Virus record (IMG/VR): IMGVR_UViG_3300015371_000142
Coordinates: 1 to 27,127 of that record
Reading direction: 5' to 3' (one strand)
DNA from: a virus
DNA length: 27,127 nucleotides
Numbering within the stretch: position 1 is the stretch's first letter; the number at the start of each line of letters is the position of its first letter. Both the position numbers and the translations under genes were made by a program. Shown here piece after piece: positions 3,401 to 24,109 of this stretch. Below the pieces are notes generated by a model. It had not been told where the DNA came from and did no database searches. It was given only the letters and a program-made list of their open reading frames with translations.

Positions 3401-3702
3401 CACGCCACCTCGTCGTCGTCATCGTCATCGGGCAACGTCAACTGCACCCCGGGCGGGTTCAACCCGTCGGGTTCGTATCGGGTGGACGCCTTCTCCCCGG
3501 ACCGGACCCGGGCCATCCGCGCCCGGTAGTAGTTGGCGACGGCGGCGTCGAGTTCGTCGGGGGACATCACCCCGTCGGGGTCGACGGCCCGTTCGGCACG
3601 GCGCCGGTTTGCGGCCCGTAGCGCGGCCGATTGGCGTTCCCGGGCACCGGGGCGCGCCCAGCGCTCGTTGGACGCCACACGCGCCCGTTCCGCGGCGTTC
3701 AC
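3397..3702 (-). CDS. basic hypothetical protein (101 aa)
   Basis: The start is GTG 3702, which overlaps the TGA of the HTH gene as GTGA; the frame is open upstream but is Arg/Pro shadow there. The first 40 residues are strongly basic (ERARVASNERWARPGARERQ), the centre is helical (MSPDELDAAVANYYRARMAR), and the tail ends in five consecutive Asp residues and EVAW. The basic N-terminal half could bind nucleic acid, but no known domain is recognised. It is the second gene of the leftward operon and overlaps the exonuclease gene start. Confidence 0.72.
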   Translation of the reverse strand: MNAAERARVASNERWARPGARERQSAALRAANRRRAERAVDPDGVMSPDELDAAVANYYRARMARVRSGEKASTRYEPDGLNPPGVQLTLPDDDDDDEVAW

Positions 3703-3935
3703 GCCGTCACCTCGTCGTCGACCGCGTGTGCGATGGCGGCGAACCCCGCCTCCCCGAACACCACCGCCATCCGGGCGAGGAGTTCGTGGCCGGGCACCGA
3801 TCGGTGGTTGAGGACCCGGGACAACGTCGACGCCGACACGTCGAGGCCGACGGCGATGTCGGAGAGGGTCACCCACCCGTGAGGTCGGGCGGCCCGGAAC
3901 AGTTCGGCCTCGTCGATCACCCATCGTGGGGACAC
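3699..3935 (-). CDS. small HTH DNA-binding protein (Cro/CI-like or accessory regulator)
   Basis: This encodes 78 aa from GTG 3935, chosen because GGAGG lies eight bases upstream; an in-frame GTG at 3968 has no such site. A helix-turn-helix occupies about residues 20-55: WVTLSDIAVGLDVSASTLSRVLNHRSVPG, then ELLARMAVVFG. This is the layout of XRE/Cro-type regulators, where the Ser-Ala-Ser-Thr-Leu-Ser helix contacts DNA. It is the first gene of the recombination operon, downstream of a promoter candidate at 4093-4122. It could be the immunity repressor, a Cro-like early regulator or an excisionase-like accessory. The sequence alone does not decide which. Confidence 0.75.
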   Translation of the reverse strand: MSPRWVIDEAELFRAARPHGWVTLSDIAVGLDVSASTLSRVLNHRSVPGHELLARMAVVFGEAGFAAIAHAVDDEVTA

Positions 3936-4089
3936 GCGCAACACCTCCGAGACATGACGAACCCGCACCGGGGCGCGGGCCGGGTAGGTGATGTGCCGGT
4001 GTCTAATCCCGAGATGGGCCTTCTGTGACGACGAACGAGGCAGAAAGCCTGGGTGGGTTCCCCGCGGCGTCGGCGTTCACCTGATGTCG

Positions 4090-4234: not shown

Positions 4235-5323
4235 TCAGGCGAGGCCGCGGGCGCGGATGGCGTTCACCGCACGATCGTTCTTCAGGTTCCGGGCGTACCG
4301 GTCGACCATCTCCCGGTCCCGCCACCCGAGAACCTCCATCACGTCACCCTCGGCCACATCGGCGCGGAGGAGTTCGTCGGCGCGGGTGTGCCGGAACGCG
4401 TGGCACCCGATGGTGTCCGGGTCGTACCCCGCCTCGGCCGCCCGACGCTTCACCATCCGGAGGATGCCGGACCCGGTCATCCGGGACCGACCCCGGGTGC
4501 CGTACCACATCCACCCCGAATCGGGACGGTCGACGAGTTTGTGGCCGGCGCGGACCCGGAGCCACCGTTGGAGGGCGAGGACGGTGTCGTCGTTGATCGG
4601 GATGTAACGGCCGGCCCGGTGCTCCTCCCCGTCGACCAACCGGACCACCCCGGCCTTCGCCCGCGCCGACTTGAACGCCCCCAACCGGACCCCGCGGCCG
4701 GCTAGGTCCAGGTCCTCGACCCACATGTTGCACACCTCCGCCCGACGGGCGCCGGTCATCAACATCCGGATGATGGCGGTGTCCCGGACATCCTCGTACG
4801 CCTTCCCCCGGCACGTCGCGAGGAGGTCGTGGACGACGTCACCGCCCAACGCGGACGGCGGCGGTTCCGACGCCTTGTACCGCGCCACCTTCCCGGACCT
4901 GAACGGGTTGACGTGGTCGTCGTACGTCGCCTCGACCCACCCGAAGAACGTCCGGAGCCGACGGGCCTTCGTGTTCGTCCCGCCCTGGGTGTGTGACCGA
5001 CGGTAGGCGGCCAACCACCCGTTGACCTCGTCGACCGTCACGTCGACATAGTCGCCGGTGAACCCGGTCCGGGTGAGGTAGTCACCGAACGCGTCGACGG
5101 TCTCTAGGTAACCCTCGATCGTTCGACGGGAGTAGAGGTCGCCGGCCGACGACGTGGCGTTCGTCAGATGGCCCTCGTAGATTCCGCGGGTCGCGGAACG
5201 ATGCATCGCCCCGATGTTCTCCCGGCCCTTGGTGACGGGGCCGGCGCCGGTCCGCGTGGCGCCCGCGCGGGCGTCCTTCAACGGTGTAACGGTGGCGGTG
5301 GCGGTGTGTTTCCTAGCGGTCAT
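4235..5323 (-). CDS. int: tyrosine recombinase integrase
   Basis: This encodes 362 aa from ATG 5323, with GGGAAGGA about ten bases upstream. Residues about 55-135 are a SAM-like core-binding domain (RRTIEGYLETVDAFGDYL, then TKARRLRTFFGWVEATY). The catalytic domain follows: MTGARRAEVCNM with Arg193, HAFRHTRADELL with His308 and Arg311, and VLGWRDREMVDRYAR with the nucleophile Tyr343. The usual second His of the LGH motif is Trp334, a replacement known in some tyrosine recombinases. The basic N-terminal 50 residues could contact arm-type sites. The gene lies about 140 bp from a candidate attP that carries a tRNA 3' end, the normal arrangement for this family. It integrates and, with an excision factor, excises the phage genome. 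Confidence 0.93.
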   Translation of the reverse strand: MTARKHTATATVTPLKDARAGATRTGAGPVTKGRENIGAMHRSATRGIYEGHLTNATSSAGDLYSRRTIEGYLETVDAFGDYLTRTGFTGDYVDVTVDEVNGWLAAYRRSHTQGGTNTKARRLRTFFGWVEATYDDHVNPFRSGKVARYKASEPPPSALGGDVVHDLLATCRGKAYEDVRDTAIIRMLMTGARRAEVCNMWVEDLDLAGRGVRLGAFKSARAKAGVVRLVDGEEHRAGRYIPINDDTVLALQRWLRVRAGHKLVDRPDSGWMWYGTRGRSRMTGSGILRMVKRRAAEAGYDPDTIGCHAFRHTRADELLRADVAEGDVMEVLGWRDREMVDRYARNLKNDRAVNAIRARGLA

Positions 5324-5466
5324 GGCCCAACGGTCCTTCCCGGATTGCAGTGGATGTCAACCCGGCTACGCACCCCTTTGATTGGCCGGGGCGGGTGCGT
5401 AGCGTGCAATCCGTCCCGGTGGGCGCCTCGTCCGATCGGTGTTTCCGCAGGTCAGGGGCCATATTG

Positions 5467-5491
5467 CGCCCCCGACCGGATTCGAACCGGT
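5467..5491 (-). other. attP: candidate attP core: 3' end of a tRNA gene
   Basis: On the minus strand 5491-5475 reads as a perfect T arm: stem ACCGG, loop TTCGAAT, stem CCGGT. It is followed by CGGGGGC (5474-5468), fitting the 3' acceptor strand, and then G as discriminator (5467). The 5' acceptor GCCCCCG, the D arm and an anticodon arm are not found in the 75 bases upstream, so this is only the 3' end of a tRNA. Tyrosine integrases often use such ends as the att core, so that insertion restores the host tRNA. The acceptor resembles actinobacterial tRNA-Arg, but the isotype is not certain. Confidence 0.7.
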
Positions 5492-5602
5492 GCGCCCGCC
5501 TCCGGAGATATGTGGCCGGTGACGCCATGCTATCAACGCAAACCCGCAGGTGGGAACATCCCCCGGAATCCCCGCGTGGCCGGGTGGGCGCGTGCGTAAC
5601 CA

Positions 5603-5712
5603 CGCCCCCGAATCGGTGCGTACCGTCAACACTCGGTTGACGGATTCTACGCACCCGCCCTGTACGCCCCAGAAGGTGCGTAGCCGGCCGCTACGCACCC
5701 GCCCCCGAATCG
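5603..5712 (+). repeat. 13-bp direct repeat CGCCCCCGAATCG
   Basis: CGCCCCCGAATCG is present at 5603-5615 and 5700-5712, each next to GTGCGTA sites. A related string, CGCCCCCGA followed by CCGGATTCG, lies in the tRNA-like core at 5467-5484. The repeat could be a core-type or accessory-protein site of attP. The function is inferred from position only. Confidence 0.6.
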
Positions 5713-5737
5713 ACCCGTCGAATTACCGGTGATAGGA

Positions 5738-5757
5738 CCCCGCCCGAACGGGGCGGG
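5738..5757. other. GC-rich hairpin before the rightward operon
   Basis: CCCCG and CGGGG form a short hairpin around CCCGAA, overlapping the last GTGCGTA site. It may be part of the attP or operator structure rather than a terminator. The stem is short. Confidence 0.4.
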
Positions 5758-5810
5758 TGCGTATCTGGGAATCCCACCTCGACGGGGATGGCGCCGAACG
5801 AATCCGGCGA

Positions 5811-5880: not shown

Positions 5881-6207
5881 ATGGCCGAACCGATAGCCGC
5901 CGAAACATTCGTCGGGGACCTATCCGACCGAACACTCCATTGCCGTGAACTCGGGCACCAGTGGAAACCACTGACGGTGTCGTGGGACCGAACGGCGTCC
6001 GTGTACGACCGGCGCCTCCGGTGCCCGTCGTGCAAGACGATTCGTGTCCAGATGCTCACCGACCACGGGCATGTCGTTAGCAACCGATACGTCTACCCGG
6101 ACGGGTATCTGGCGAAAGGTGTGACGGTCGGGGACCTCAACCGCGACATGTTCCGCATGGAGGCCATTCAACGGTTCCTCGGGGCGACGGAGGCGGCGGC
6201 ATCATGA
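5881..6207 (+). CDS. small zinc-ribbon-like early protein
   Basis: This encodes 108 aa from ATG 5881 with GGGAGGG about six bases upstream; an in-frame ATG at 5788 lacks such a site. The protein has a His/Cys N-terminal part (DRTLHCRELGHQW) and a CPSCK pair in RRLRCPSCKTIRV, consistent with one zinc site of the C-(H)-C-C kind. The C-terminal half (YVYPDGYLAKGVTVGDLNRDMFRMEAIQRFL) is helical. Proteins of this type occur in actinophage early regions, but their role is unknown to me. It is the first gene of the rightward operon and overlaps the next by ATGA. DNA binding, control of excision or host takeover are possible. Confidence 0.8.
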   Translation: MAEPIAAETFVGDLSDRTLHCRELGHQWKPLTVSWDRTASVYDRRLRCPSCKTIRVQMLTDHGHVVSNRYVYPDGYLAKGVTVGDLNRDMFRMEAIQRFLGATEAAAS

Positions 6208-6752
6208 GCCAGAAGATCGTGACGTTGTGCGACATCCACCAGCAGCGGGACGAGGAGGTGCCGGGTCGTCCGTTCGACGTGGTGGCCCGGGTCGACGGCG
6301 GCGGGTTCCGGTTCGTGACGATCGACCTTTGCGAATCGTGCGCGAAACCCCTCGTGGACATGGTCGACGGGTTCGCCGAACTCGGACGCGAATACACGGG
6401 CGCGGTTCCGCGGCCACCGAAGCGCCGGTCGCGGGCGACGTCGGTGGCCCGGGCGTCGCGGCCGGACGCGGGGACCCGGGGACCGTTGCCCGTCGAATAT
6501 CCGATCGAGGGGACGGACGACGGCCGGGTGGTGTGCCCGACGTGCGGGACGACGGCGGCGAACAAGTCGTCGTTGCGTTCCCACCTCCGGAACCGGCACG
6601 GGCAGACGATGTCGGCGGCGTACGGCCGGGAGGACGATGCGGCGTTCGTGTGCCCGGTGTGCGCGGACCGGTTCGACGGCGCGACGGGGTTGTCGTCCCA
6701 CATCCGGGCGACCGGGCACCGGACCCCGCCGCGACCCGCGGGGGACGCGTGA
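6204..6752 (+). CDS. Lsr2-like N-domain joined to two C2H2 zinc fingers
   Basis: This encodes 182 aa, overlapping the previous gene by ATGA. Residues 1-65 (VTLCDIHQQRDEEVPGRPFD, then GFRFVTIDLCESCAKPLVDM, then VDGFAELGREY) resemble the dimerisation half of Lsr2 (beta-beta-alpha with IDL and a closing GR). Two Cys-x2-Cys pairs could add a zinc. An Arg/Pro-rich linker follows at about 70-95. Two fingers then occupy about 110-134 (VCPTCGTTAANKSSLRSHLR, then NRH) and 149-172 (VCPVCADRFDGATGLSSHIR, then ATGH). Lsr2 silences AT-rich DNA in actinobacteria. This could be a phage DNA-binding regulator that replaces the Lsr2 AT-hook with zinc fingers. The zinc fingers are clear; the Lsr2 link is my inference. 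Confidence 0.78.
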   Translation: MSQKIVTLCDIHQQRDEEVPGRPFDVVARVDGGGFRFVTIDLCESCAKPLVDMVDGFAELGREYTGAVPRPPKRRSRATSVARASRPDAGTRGPLPVEYPIEGTDDGRVVCPTCGTTAANKSSLRSHLRNRHGQTMSAAYGREDDAAFVCPVCADRFDGATGLSSHIRATGHRTPPRPAGDA

Positions 6753-7083: not shown

Positions 7084-7305
7084 TCACCACCCGACCCCGA
7101 ACCATAGGCCGGACACGAACCGCTCCCAGGCGGTGGCCGGCCGCCATCCCGCCGCCGTCAACTTCCAGCCCTTGTGGACGTCGCCGACGCGGACGAGGGA
7201 ACCATCGGGCGCCTGGGCGTGGCCGGGTATCCAGCCGCGGTGGGTTAGTCCGTGGCCGTTGACGTAGTCGCCGACCCGGTACGTGGTGGGTGTGGTGTCG
7301 CTCAT
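7084..7305 (-). CDS. hypothetical beta-rich small protein (73 aa)
   Basis: This encodes 73 aa from ATG 7305, which overlaps the RHH gene stop by ATGA; GGGAAGGA lies upstream. The sequence (TYRVGDYVNGHGLTHRGWIP, then GSLVRVGDVHKGWKLTAAGW) looks like a small SH3-like or KOW-like beta barrel, with a hydrophobic aromatic tail (WERFVSGLWFGVGW). The fold is a guess from the pattern of beta strands and Gly/Trp. It is the last gene of the small-protein cluster. No catalytic motif is seen. Confidence 0.72.
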   Translation of the reverse strand: MSDTTPTTYRVGDYVNGHGLTHRGWIPGHAQAPDGSLVRVGDVHKGWKLTAAGWRPATAWERFVSGLWFGVGW

Positions 7306-7466
7306 CGTTCGTTGTCCTTCCCGGTGGTGGTGCGGGTCTTGGTGTACCGGATCAATGCCCGGGTGATTGCGTCGGTGACGGTCTCGCCGCGGGCCTCCGC
7401 CTCGGCCTTCGCCGCCGCCCATAGGTCCTCGTGGACCCGCACGGCGCGGAGCGGCTTGGCCGCCAT
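7302..7466 (-). CDS. ribbon-helix-helix (Arc/CopG-like) DNA-binding protein
   Basis: This encodes 54 aa from ATG 7466, which shares one base with the preceding TGA (TGATG); an in-frame GTG at 7469 is also possible. The layout PLRAVRVHEDLWAAAKAEAE followed by ARGETVTDAITRALIRYTK is a typical RHH: one beta strand, helix A, a turn with Gly-Glu-Thr-Val, and helix B. Such proteins dimerise and contact DNA through the strand residues. It may repress its own cluster, for example through the repeated palindrome-like sites at 8116 and 9147. That link is inference. A toxin-antitoxin antitoxin is an alternative, but no toxin-like partner is obvious. Confidence 0.78.
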   Translation of the reverse strand: MAAKPLRAVRVHEDLWAAAKAEAEARGETVTDAITRALIRYTKTRTTTGKDNER

Positions 7467-7723
7467 CACGCCCGCCCGGCGGCACGGGCCAGGGATTCGG
7501 CGGCCCAACGGCGGGACCCCGACTTGCCCTCCGCCGAACGGTCCGCGGTCGTCCACGTCCACGACCGTTCGCGGAGCCGGGACCCGTTCTTCCGGACGTA
7601 TCCGACGAGGGTGCGCGCCTCGGGGACGGTGCTCTCGACGTGTACGGCCCATTCGCCGGAACCGACGCGGGTCCGGTAGGTGAACCGGTCGTCGGCCTGG
7701 GTGCGGTAGGTGGTGCGTGTCAT
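7466..7723 (-). CDS. hypothetical protein (85 aa)
   Basis: This encodes 85 aa from ATG 7723 with GGGAAGGAAC 7-16 bases upstream; a longer frame upstream is Pro-rich shadow over a hairpin. The N-terminal half alternates as beta strands (MTRTTYRTQADDRFTYRTRV, then GSGEWAVHVESTVPEARTLV). The C-terminal half is basic (KNGSRLRERSWTWTTADRSA, then RRWAAESLARAAGRA). No family is recognised. It may be a small nucleic-acid-binding protein given its basic charge. Confidence 0.72.
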   Translation of the reverse strand: MTRTTYRTQADDRFTYRTRVGSGEWAVHVESTVPEARTLVGYVRKNGSRLRERSWTWTTADRSAEGKSGSRRWAAESLARAAGRA

Positions 7724-22596: not shown

Positions 22597-22946
22597 CACG
22601 ACACCGGGATCGTTCGGTGCGGCCCCTCTAGGTGCCAGACGTCGTTGTCGAATGACGGGAGGCGGGCGCCGACGAAGTCGCCGCCGGTGCCGGTCAACCC
22701 GACCACACCCTCCGGGCTGTTCCGCCGGGCCGCTAACCGTTGGGCGCGGAGGAAGATGGCGTCCCGGAGGTCGGGGGTCATCACGGGTTCGTCGAACGCG
22801 TCCCGGGGGTAGGACACCACCCGACATTGGGCCTCCATCGCGGCGGCCAACGATTCGGTGAGGACCACGTCGTCCTCGGTGTCGTCGGCGTCCAGCCCTA
22901 GCCACGCCTTGAGCGCGGCTAGGTCCGGGGCGCCGTTCATGGTCAC
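22596..22946 (-). CDS. head-tail connector protein (gp6-like)
   Basis: This encodes 116 aa from GTG 22946 (GTGA overlap); ATG 22940 is an alternative. Helical sequence LAALKAWLGLDADDTEDDVV, LTESLAAAMEAQCRVVSYPR and MTPDLRDAIFLRAQRLAARR matches HK97 gp6-type connectors that bind the portal after DNA packaging. It directly follows the capsid gene. Confidence 0.82.
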   Translation of the reverse strand: MTMNGAPDLAALKAWLGLDADDTEDDVVLTESLAAAMEAQCRVVSYPRDAFDEPVMTPDLRDAIFLRAQRLAARRNSPEGVVGLTGTGGDFVGARLPSFDNDVWHLEGPHRTIPVS

Positions 22947-24109
22947 GCGGTCTTGGCCTCGACAAGCGCCTGGGGACGAACGACGGCGGTGAGGCCGCGA
23001 CGCTCGGCGAGCAACGTGAACACGTTGGAGAGGAACGTGTCGCCGTGCGAGTCGGTGACGTAGAGGTTGATCTGGGAACGGACGTAGTGGTGTACGGCGG
23101 CCCGGAAGTCGCCGACGATCGCGGTCCCCTCCGCCTGCGCGGACGACGGGATCGGGGTCAACCCCCAGAACGTCTGGTTGATCCGTGGCCCGTTGAGGGT
23201 GTCGCCCATGATGGCGACGTCCATGACGGCCCAGTCGGCGGGGTTGAGGAGGACGGCGGTCGGGGTGTACCCCGCCTCCTGCACCGTCCCGATTCCGGTA
23301 CGGATCGAGGCGAGGAGGTCACCGGAGACGTTGACGTCGGGGATGGTCGCGGACGCGGCGGCGAGGACGGAGACGGCGTCGGCCTCCTCGGCCCGGACGA
23401 TGTCGCGGCGTAGTTCGCCGTCGATGTAGGACCGGACGGCCGAGAAGTCCTCCATGAGTTGCCGGGTCAACTGGGTGTAGACGGCCCAGTTGTCGAGGGT
23501 GTCGGACGTGACGGTCGGCGCCCATTCGGCCGACGGCTTCGCCGCCTTCTCCGCCACCTTCGCGGCACCGCCGGCGACCTTCGCCCACGACACGTATTCG
23601 ACGGCGTTACCGGACACCCCGATGGTGGTGATGTTGTCGAGGAGCGGGGTCGGCGCCTGGGGCGGCGTGAGGTCGACGGAATACTTCGTCGGGGTGAGGC
23701 CGGCGGCGATGAGTTCGGCCATGCCGGTCGGGAGGGCGCGGGTCTCGACGTCGTCGATGGCGAACATCCCGGACGTGCCGCGGCCCCGGTATCCCTTGAA
23801 CTCGTCGGACCGGATGAACGCCTCGCCCCACGATTCGCGGGTCTGGATTCCGCGGGACGGTTCGTCGGCGCGCTGCTGCCGGGCCTGCGCGGCCTTCGCC
23901 AACCGGCCGTCGAGGTTGTCCGATTCCCGCTGCGCCTCTAGGAGGTCGGCGAGGGACGCGATGCGGGCGTCGAGGTCGGTGGCGCGGGACCGGAGTTCTA
24001 CGTACGTCTTGTCGTCGGGGGTGAAGTCGTCGGATTCGGCGATGGCGACGGCGGCCGAACGGGCCTCGTCGCGCTCGGCGCACAACTTGTCGATAACGGC
24101 GGTGGACAT
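22943..24109 (-). CDS. major capsid protein (HK97 fold)
   Basis: This encodes 388 aa from ATG 24109 with GGAGG eight bases upstream. Residues 1-100 are a charged coiled coil (VELRSRATDLDARIASLADL, then LEAQRESDNLDGRLAKAAQA), typical of the scaffolding delta domain removed by the protease. The mature part has GEAFIRSDEFKGYRGRGTSG, TPLLDNITTIGVSGNAVEYV, ISSWAKVAG-like and TLDNWAVYTQLTRQLMEDFS stretches, and ends with AVVRPQALVEAKTA. Order and motifs fit the HK97 family. Confidence 0.92.
   Translation of the reverse strand: MSTAVIDKLCAERDEARSAAVAIAESDDFTPDDKTYVELRSRATDLDARIASLADLLEAQRESDNLDGRLAKAAQARQQRADEPSRGIQTRESWGEAFIRSDEFKGYRGRGTSGMFAIDDVETRALPTGMAELIAAGLTPTKYSVDLTPPQAPTPLLDNITTIGVSGNAVEYVSWAKVAGGAAKVAEKAAKPSAEWAPTVTSDTLDNWAVYTQLTRQLMEDFSAVRSYIDGELRRDIVRAEEADAVSVLAAASATIPDVNVSGDLLASIRTGIGTVQEAGYTPTAVLLNPADWAVMDVAIMGDTLNGPRINQTFWGLTPIPSSAQAEGTAIVGDFRAAVHHYVRSQINLYVTDSHGDTFLSNVFTLLAERRGLTAVVRPQALVEAKTA

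Follow-up and report, generated by a model that had tools for sequence, protein, structure and literature searches.

Between the integrase gene and a divergent rightward gene of this virus lies a dense array of a single 7-bp word, GTGCGTA, and the question that the locus raises is whether these words serve integration, the transcription of the flanking genes, or neither. The window analyzed is the whole virus record of 27,127 bases, which is GC-rich and carries tailed-phage genes. The tyrosine integrase gene (int; 4235-5323, minus strand; 362 aa; PF00589, 9.1e-21; phrog_1) and the rightward gene, which codes for a phrog_4480 protein and starts at 5881 on the plus strand, are separated by a 557-bp intergenic gap containing all of the array sites and the attachment core. 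Two regulators are encoded as well: a small HTH protein (3699-3968, minus strand; phrog_3642, 1.9e-10), whose gene lies on the opposite side of int from attP, and an Arc-like ribbon-helix-helix (RHH) protein (within 7302-7652), both of which are candidate binders of the array.

Other features of the record include a C2H2 zinc-finger phage protein encoded at 6204-6752 (PF13894/PF00096, above cut-off), with similar proteins coming after phrog_4480 in contigs L129, L131, and L168. The product of a 388-aa open reading frame at 22943-24109, taken to be the capsid protein, has 100% identical counterparts in two short contigs from other metagenomes (L132 and L133). Neither contig extends to the attP region, but the matches indicate that this phage, or a close twin of it, has been sampled elsewhere.

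The attP core and its tRNA-Arg identity

The tRNA-like core described in the initial annotation can be refined to the 3' half of a tRNA-Arg(CCG) (5467-5507, minus strand), extending from the anticodon loop to the discriminator. Read along the minus strand from 5507 to 5467, it comprises the anticodon loop (CTCCGGA, with the CCG anticodon), the 3' anticodon stem (GGCGG), the variable loop (GCGC), the T arm (ACCGG, TTCGAAT, and CCGGT), the acceptor 3' strand (CGGGGGC), and the discriminator (G), with the integrase gene starting 143 bp from the core. ARAGORN calls no complete tRNA in the record, as expected for half a tRNA. A degenerate half-tRNA pattern run on the viral contig collection matched five contigs, in two of which (L153 and L154) a full tRNA-Arg(ccg) is called; in two others (L151 and L152), a homologous integrase starts shortly downstream of the half-tRNA in the same orientation, which argues that three divergent integrase systems share both the target and the placement of attP. 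The genome collection contains no exact match to the core (with two variable-loop bases left free), and no host attB was found there.

A second feature shared by the three diverged attP sites is the hexamer TAGCAT (5527-5532, minus strand, with counterparts at L151:4758 and L152:3843), which precedes the core CTCCGG by exactly 19 nt in every case and can be extended to GCGYTG(N)TAGCAT. It is a position-locked attP element, perhaps serving either as a contact for the integrase or an accessory protein or as an extended -10 for int. Judged from its sequence organization, the region is almost certainly the attP through which the phage integrates into a tRNA-Arg(CCG) gene.

The GTGCGTA array

There are eight exact copies of GTGCGTA in the window and all lie within 5367-5763, so the initial annotation was right to place eight words within 400 bp around the tRNA 3' end, to see none elsewhere in the record, and to divide them two and six about the core. 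Site 1 (5367-5373, minus strand) and site 2 (5395-5401, plus strand) are on the int side, in the int leader and next to a TTGACA box, and the remaining six are on the far side: site 3 (5592-5598, plus), which is 84 nt from the core palindrome/anticodon loop, site 4 (5616-5622, plus), site 5 (5648-5654, minus), site 6 (5676-5682, plus), site 7 (5692-5698, minus), and site 8 (5757-5763, plus), whose 26-bp neighborhood is 85% identical to that of site 2. The perfect inverted pairing also noted at the outset holds for sites 6 and 7, which are convergent and form a 10-bp inverted repeat (GGTGCGTAGC-CGGCC-GCTACGCACC); sites 4 and 5 are likewise convergent. Seven of the eight sites extend to GGTGCGTA and four to CGGGTGCGTA, and when aligned in one direction they have a GC-rich left flank, GCGGGTGCGTAGC, and are degenerate beyond the 7-mer. 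The order of orientations is - + core + + - + - +, and the site-to-site steps of 28, 197, 24, 32, 28, 16, and 65 bp are irregular, a pattern that fits asymmetric sites acting independently better than dimeric operators with a set geometry.

The total of eight copies is just mildly high relative to whole-window shuffles (mean 2.74, largest 9), and it is the clustering that is extreme, a 400-bp stretch containing eight copies where 0.026 would be expected (Poisson log10 p = -17.4). This is the most extreme cluster among all 7-mers in the record, and none of 200 order-2 Markov sequences reaches it, their best 7-mer cluster having a log10 p of -12.6. The array sites were also considered as extra core-type sites and rejected, the motif matrix scoring no higher than 4.2 at the core. 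A sigma-70 promoter scan of the int/phrog_4480 intergenic region found none, and blastn of the same region against phages returned no match.

Several other features of the region are of note. The plus-strand transcript of the array (5585-5770) is predicted to fold strongly (z -4.0) as a consequence of the inverted words. A GGATTGC/GCAATCC inverted pair (about 5343-5349 and 5406-5412) brackets sites 1 and 2 and the TTGAC block, and the same pair is present in L151 (about 4853-4859 and 4921-4927), possibly representing a second protein-binding word. Dense GTGCGTA arrays of 5 to 10 copies per 75 to 190 bp, found with GTGCGTA pair and triple patterns in the viral contig collection, are also present in unrelated viral contigs (L161:881-1018, L155:2667-2760, L156:1818-2006, L158:2799-2987, L164:7546-7734, L167:3548-3621, and L116:5621-5720). 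An HMM search found no integrase adjoining these arrays, the exception being L155, with a weak match about 4.5 kb away.

The integrase and the array in related phages

The integrase has a complete catalytic set (conserved R193, H308, R311, and Y343), and a Pfam search of its sequence recognized no arm-binding domain. The AlphaFold2 model, built with a 14-sequence alignment, is confident overall (pLDDT 82, pTM 0.70) and contains a core-binding domain of four helices (34-55, 66-85, 97-110, and 116-134) followed by the catalytic domain; residues 1 to 31 are disordered and of low confidence, this tail being backed by just two homologous sequences, and the modeled disorder is compatible with folding on DNA. 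By fold, the protein is closest to XerA, a Tn1549 integrase truncated at its N terminus, an integrase from an integron, XerD, and Brujita Int (5vfz, E 2.9e-7). The protein thus appears from its model to be a simple Xer/Brujita-like recombinase lacking an arm-binding domain. Tyrosine recombinases are divided into simple enzymes and those with an arm-binding domain, and by far the most phage integrases belong to the second group (PMC8138268). The Brujita system has been described as having no N-terminal domains, arm-type sites, or directionality factors (PMC7194413). An arm-like array is therefore unexpected beside an integrase of this simple type.

The distribution of the array among relatives of the phage indicates to which neighbor it belongs. 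Contigs L131, L129, and L128 are syntenic with the record for the neighboring exonuclease or phrog_4480 genes, the phrog_4480 protein of L131 being 72% identical, and they have other integration systems (a serine integrase elsewhere in L131 and L129, and another tyrosine integrase in L128). There is no GTGCGTA cluster upstream of phrog_4480 in these three records, nor anywhere else in them. Conversely, the closest integrase relative, that of L151 (51% identical over residues 36-361), has the same tRNA-Arg core with a different neighboring gene. G004, the 21-kb contig to which L151 belongs, has genes for HTH, exonuclease, phrog_4480, and zinc-finger proteins at its opposite end (L168); it is therefore a true relative, in which the integration module sits away from phrog_4480.

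Scanning L151 with the motif matrix of the record gives one outstanding match, GGGCGGGTGCCTAGCCTGG (4859-4877), the diverged counterpart of site 2, located between the core and int; its score of 18.1 is the best in 6.3 kb, compared with 9.1 for the next match and a null best of 11.2 on average and 17.7 at maximum (n=200). Across the core from int, L151 also contains a second close copy (14/16; 1/2000 shuffles) of its own word, CTAGGCACCCGCCCTC, lying 83 nt from the anticodon loop; site 3, its positional counterpart, lies at 84 nt. A small open reading frame with a GTG start (L151:4938-5127) lies between attP and int in that contig and overlaps the int start, and is absent here. The L152 integrase is 37% identical and has the same core, together with a different repeat, TAGCATCT, present three times and split two and one about the core, as would be expected if site specificity diverges with the system. 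More-distant integrase homologues (about 26 to 32% identical) have no comparable array by 8-mer counts beside int, and a single-sequence search with the integrase of the viral and genome contig collections returned nothing.

By these comparisons, the array is part of the int/attP integration module and not of the rightward gene. Repeats flanking the core appear to characterize this attP family and to diverge in sequence from one system to the next; the eight-site GTGCGTA array appears to be an expansion found to date in this phage alone, although the comparison rests on a single close integrase relative (L151).

Proposed binding in trans and comparison with known systems

It is an even call whether the GTGCGTA words are attP accessory sites in the position of arm-type sites, expanded in this phage and probably bound by a protein acting in trans. 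The words would be asymmetric, individually bound protein sites of the integration module, and the array would have grown from an ancestral pair that flanked the core, an arrangement still present in the closest relative. A DNA-binding protein on these words may fold attP or cover it while regulating the int transcription that overlaps it, with occupancy coupling integration to int expression. Crossover in the anticodon loop would leave sites 1 and 2 at the tRNA-restored, int-bearing junction and sites 3 to 8 at the other. Because the integrase seems to have no arm-binding domain, a separate phage protein or the integrase tail is a likelier binder than an arm domain of the lambda type, and binding of the attP sites by a phage regulator is possible. 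The HTH protein would be the best candidate, the disordered integrase tail and the RHH protein being the others; we infer binding, the identity of the binder, and the effects on recombination and transcription from this organization. Two phrog_3642 HTH homologues are encoded in G004, one of them adjoining its attP, and none were found in L128, L129, L131, or L152. A one-mismatch site between HTH1 and phrog_4480 in G004 likewise favors the HTH protein. The two diverged copies in the closest relative count against a trans-bound array, in that a large array is not required by the integrase family.

The initial annotation likened the layout to integrase arm sites in attP, and as regards position this stands: the region is attP-like, the word is local to it and co-occurs with the integrase family, sites flank the core on both sides (as do the diverged copies in the closest relative), the word diverges in L151 and L152 alongside the integrase, and mixed orientations have actinophage precedents (PMC3203893). 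An ordinary lambda- or L5-like system, with the N-terminal region of Int binding GTGCGTA and the array assembling the intasome, is nonetheless rather doubtful, since neither Pfam nor the structural model has an arm-binding domain, the residues preceding the core-binding domain at 34 being the low-confidence tail, and the spacing is wide and irregular (16 to 65 bp within an arm). The other proposal made at the outset, a repressor operator array, would have the words govern transcription from the int promoter and the divergent rightward promoter (5881) while playing no part in recombination. The array does occupy the gap between divergent genes, its sites adjoin TTGAC boxes at 5355, 5625, and 5637, the phage codes for HTH and Arc-like proteins, and G004 has its one-mismatch site in the gap between HTH1 and phrog_4480 (P of about 0.02). 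However, the relatives sharing the rightward gene have no array, and in G004 the motif goes with attP, distant from phrog_4480, which together weaken the tie to the rightward promoter. The pair geometries also vary (16, 28, and 32 bp), and whereas phage repressor operators are expected at several promoters, including that of the regulator itself, no site lies outside 5367-5763, leaving the other promoters of the record without one. Upstream of the HTH gene the best motif score is 6.0 and the expected site is missing, arguing against the HTH protein as an autoregulated repressor that uses GTGCGTA, and an operator role overall is improbable.

A third and very improbable explanation is that the words form RNA or terminator hairpins, or are a chance expansion of a GC-rich repeat with no binding protein. 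The unusually good folding of the region and its perfect inverted repeats fit this, but what is conserved is the 7-mer, which occurs in either orientation and also as direct copies unable to pair, the null models fall short of the cluster, and the relative has one positional counterpart and one strong motif match.

Returning to sites bound in trans, a broader and more tentative proposal is that the attP of this simple, arm-less integrase has become complex and arm-like again by way of a separate DNA-binding protein, a phage regulator that binds the eight-site array and couples the lysogeny switch to recombination directionality. If so, the array bound in trans would stand in for the arm-binding domains of lambda-type integrases. 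Simple phage integrases are described as having neither arm sites nor directionality factors, and an arm-like array on the attP of such an enzyme would point to another means of controlling integration, by a protein in trans. The locus would also bear on the evolution of complex attP sites, with two flanking sites in one relative and eight here, and int with its attP could serve as an integration tool aimed at a tRNA-Arg gene.

Among known systems, actinophage attP sites offer established cases of predicted arm-type sites, some with inverted copies or with six sites (PMC3203893). As in those phages and L5, the core here has identity to a tRNA or tmRNA 3' end and lies on the 5' side of a tyrosine int, with short repeated sites on both sides, some of them inverted (Pixie has six sites, one inverted). 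The differences are in the word itself, its eight copies, and their wide spacing, and in the integrase: the N-terminal regions of the actinophage and L5 enzymes are predicted to bind arms, and it is because the corresponding domain was looked for here and not recognized that the system is set apart from the lambda/L5 class. Brujita-type simple integrases, in the account of Lunt and Hatfull (2016) as cited in PMC8138268 and PMC7194413, similarly have core-binding and catalytic domains only; however, the Brujita system is reported in those citing accounts to have no arm-type sites and an attP inside the repressor gene, whereas attP here is intergenic (between int and phrog_4480), with eight accessory sites and a tRNA-Arg core. 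The intS/argW attL of the KplE1 prophage (PMC2951348) shares the tRNA-Arg target, the arrangement of the tRNA followed by int in the same orientation, and protein sites overlapping the int leader, where Int and the recombination directionality factor (RDF) repress int in KplE1; but IntS binds its own arm-type sites, whereas the binder here is a candidate only. Control of the int promoter by Int and RDF is predicted for this tRNA-then-int layout and was shown in Escherichia coli cases (PMC2951348). The layout itself is thus not new; the difference lies in its combination with an integrase showing no arm domain, and the contrast of two sites in a relative with eight here.
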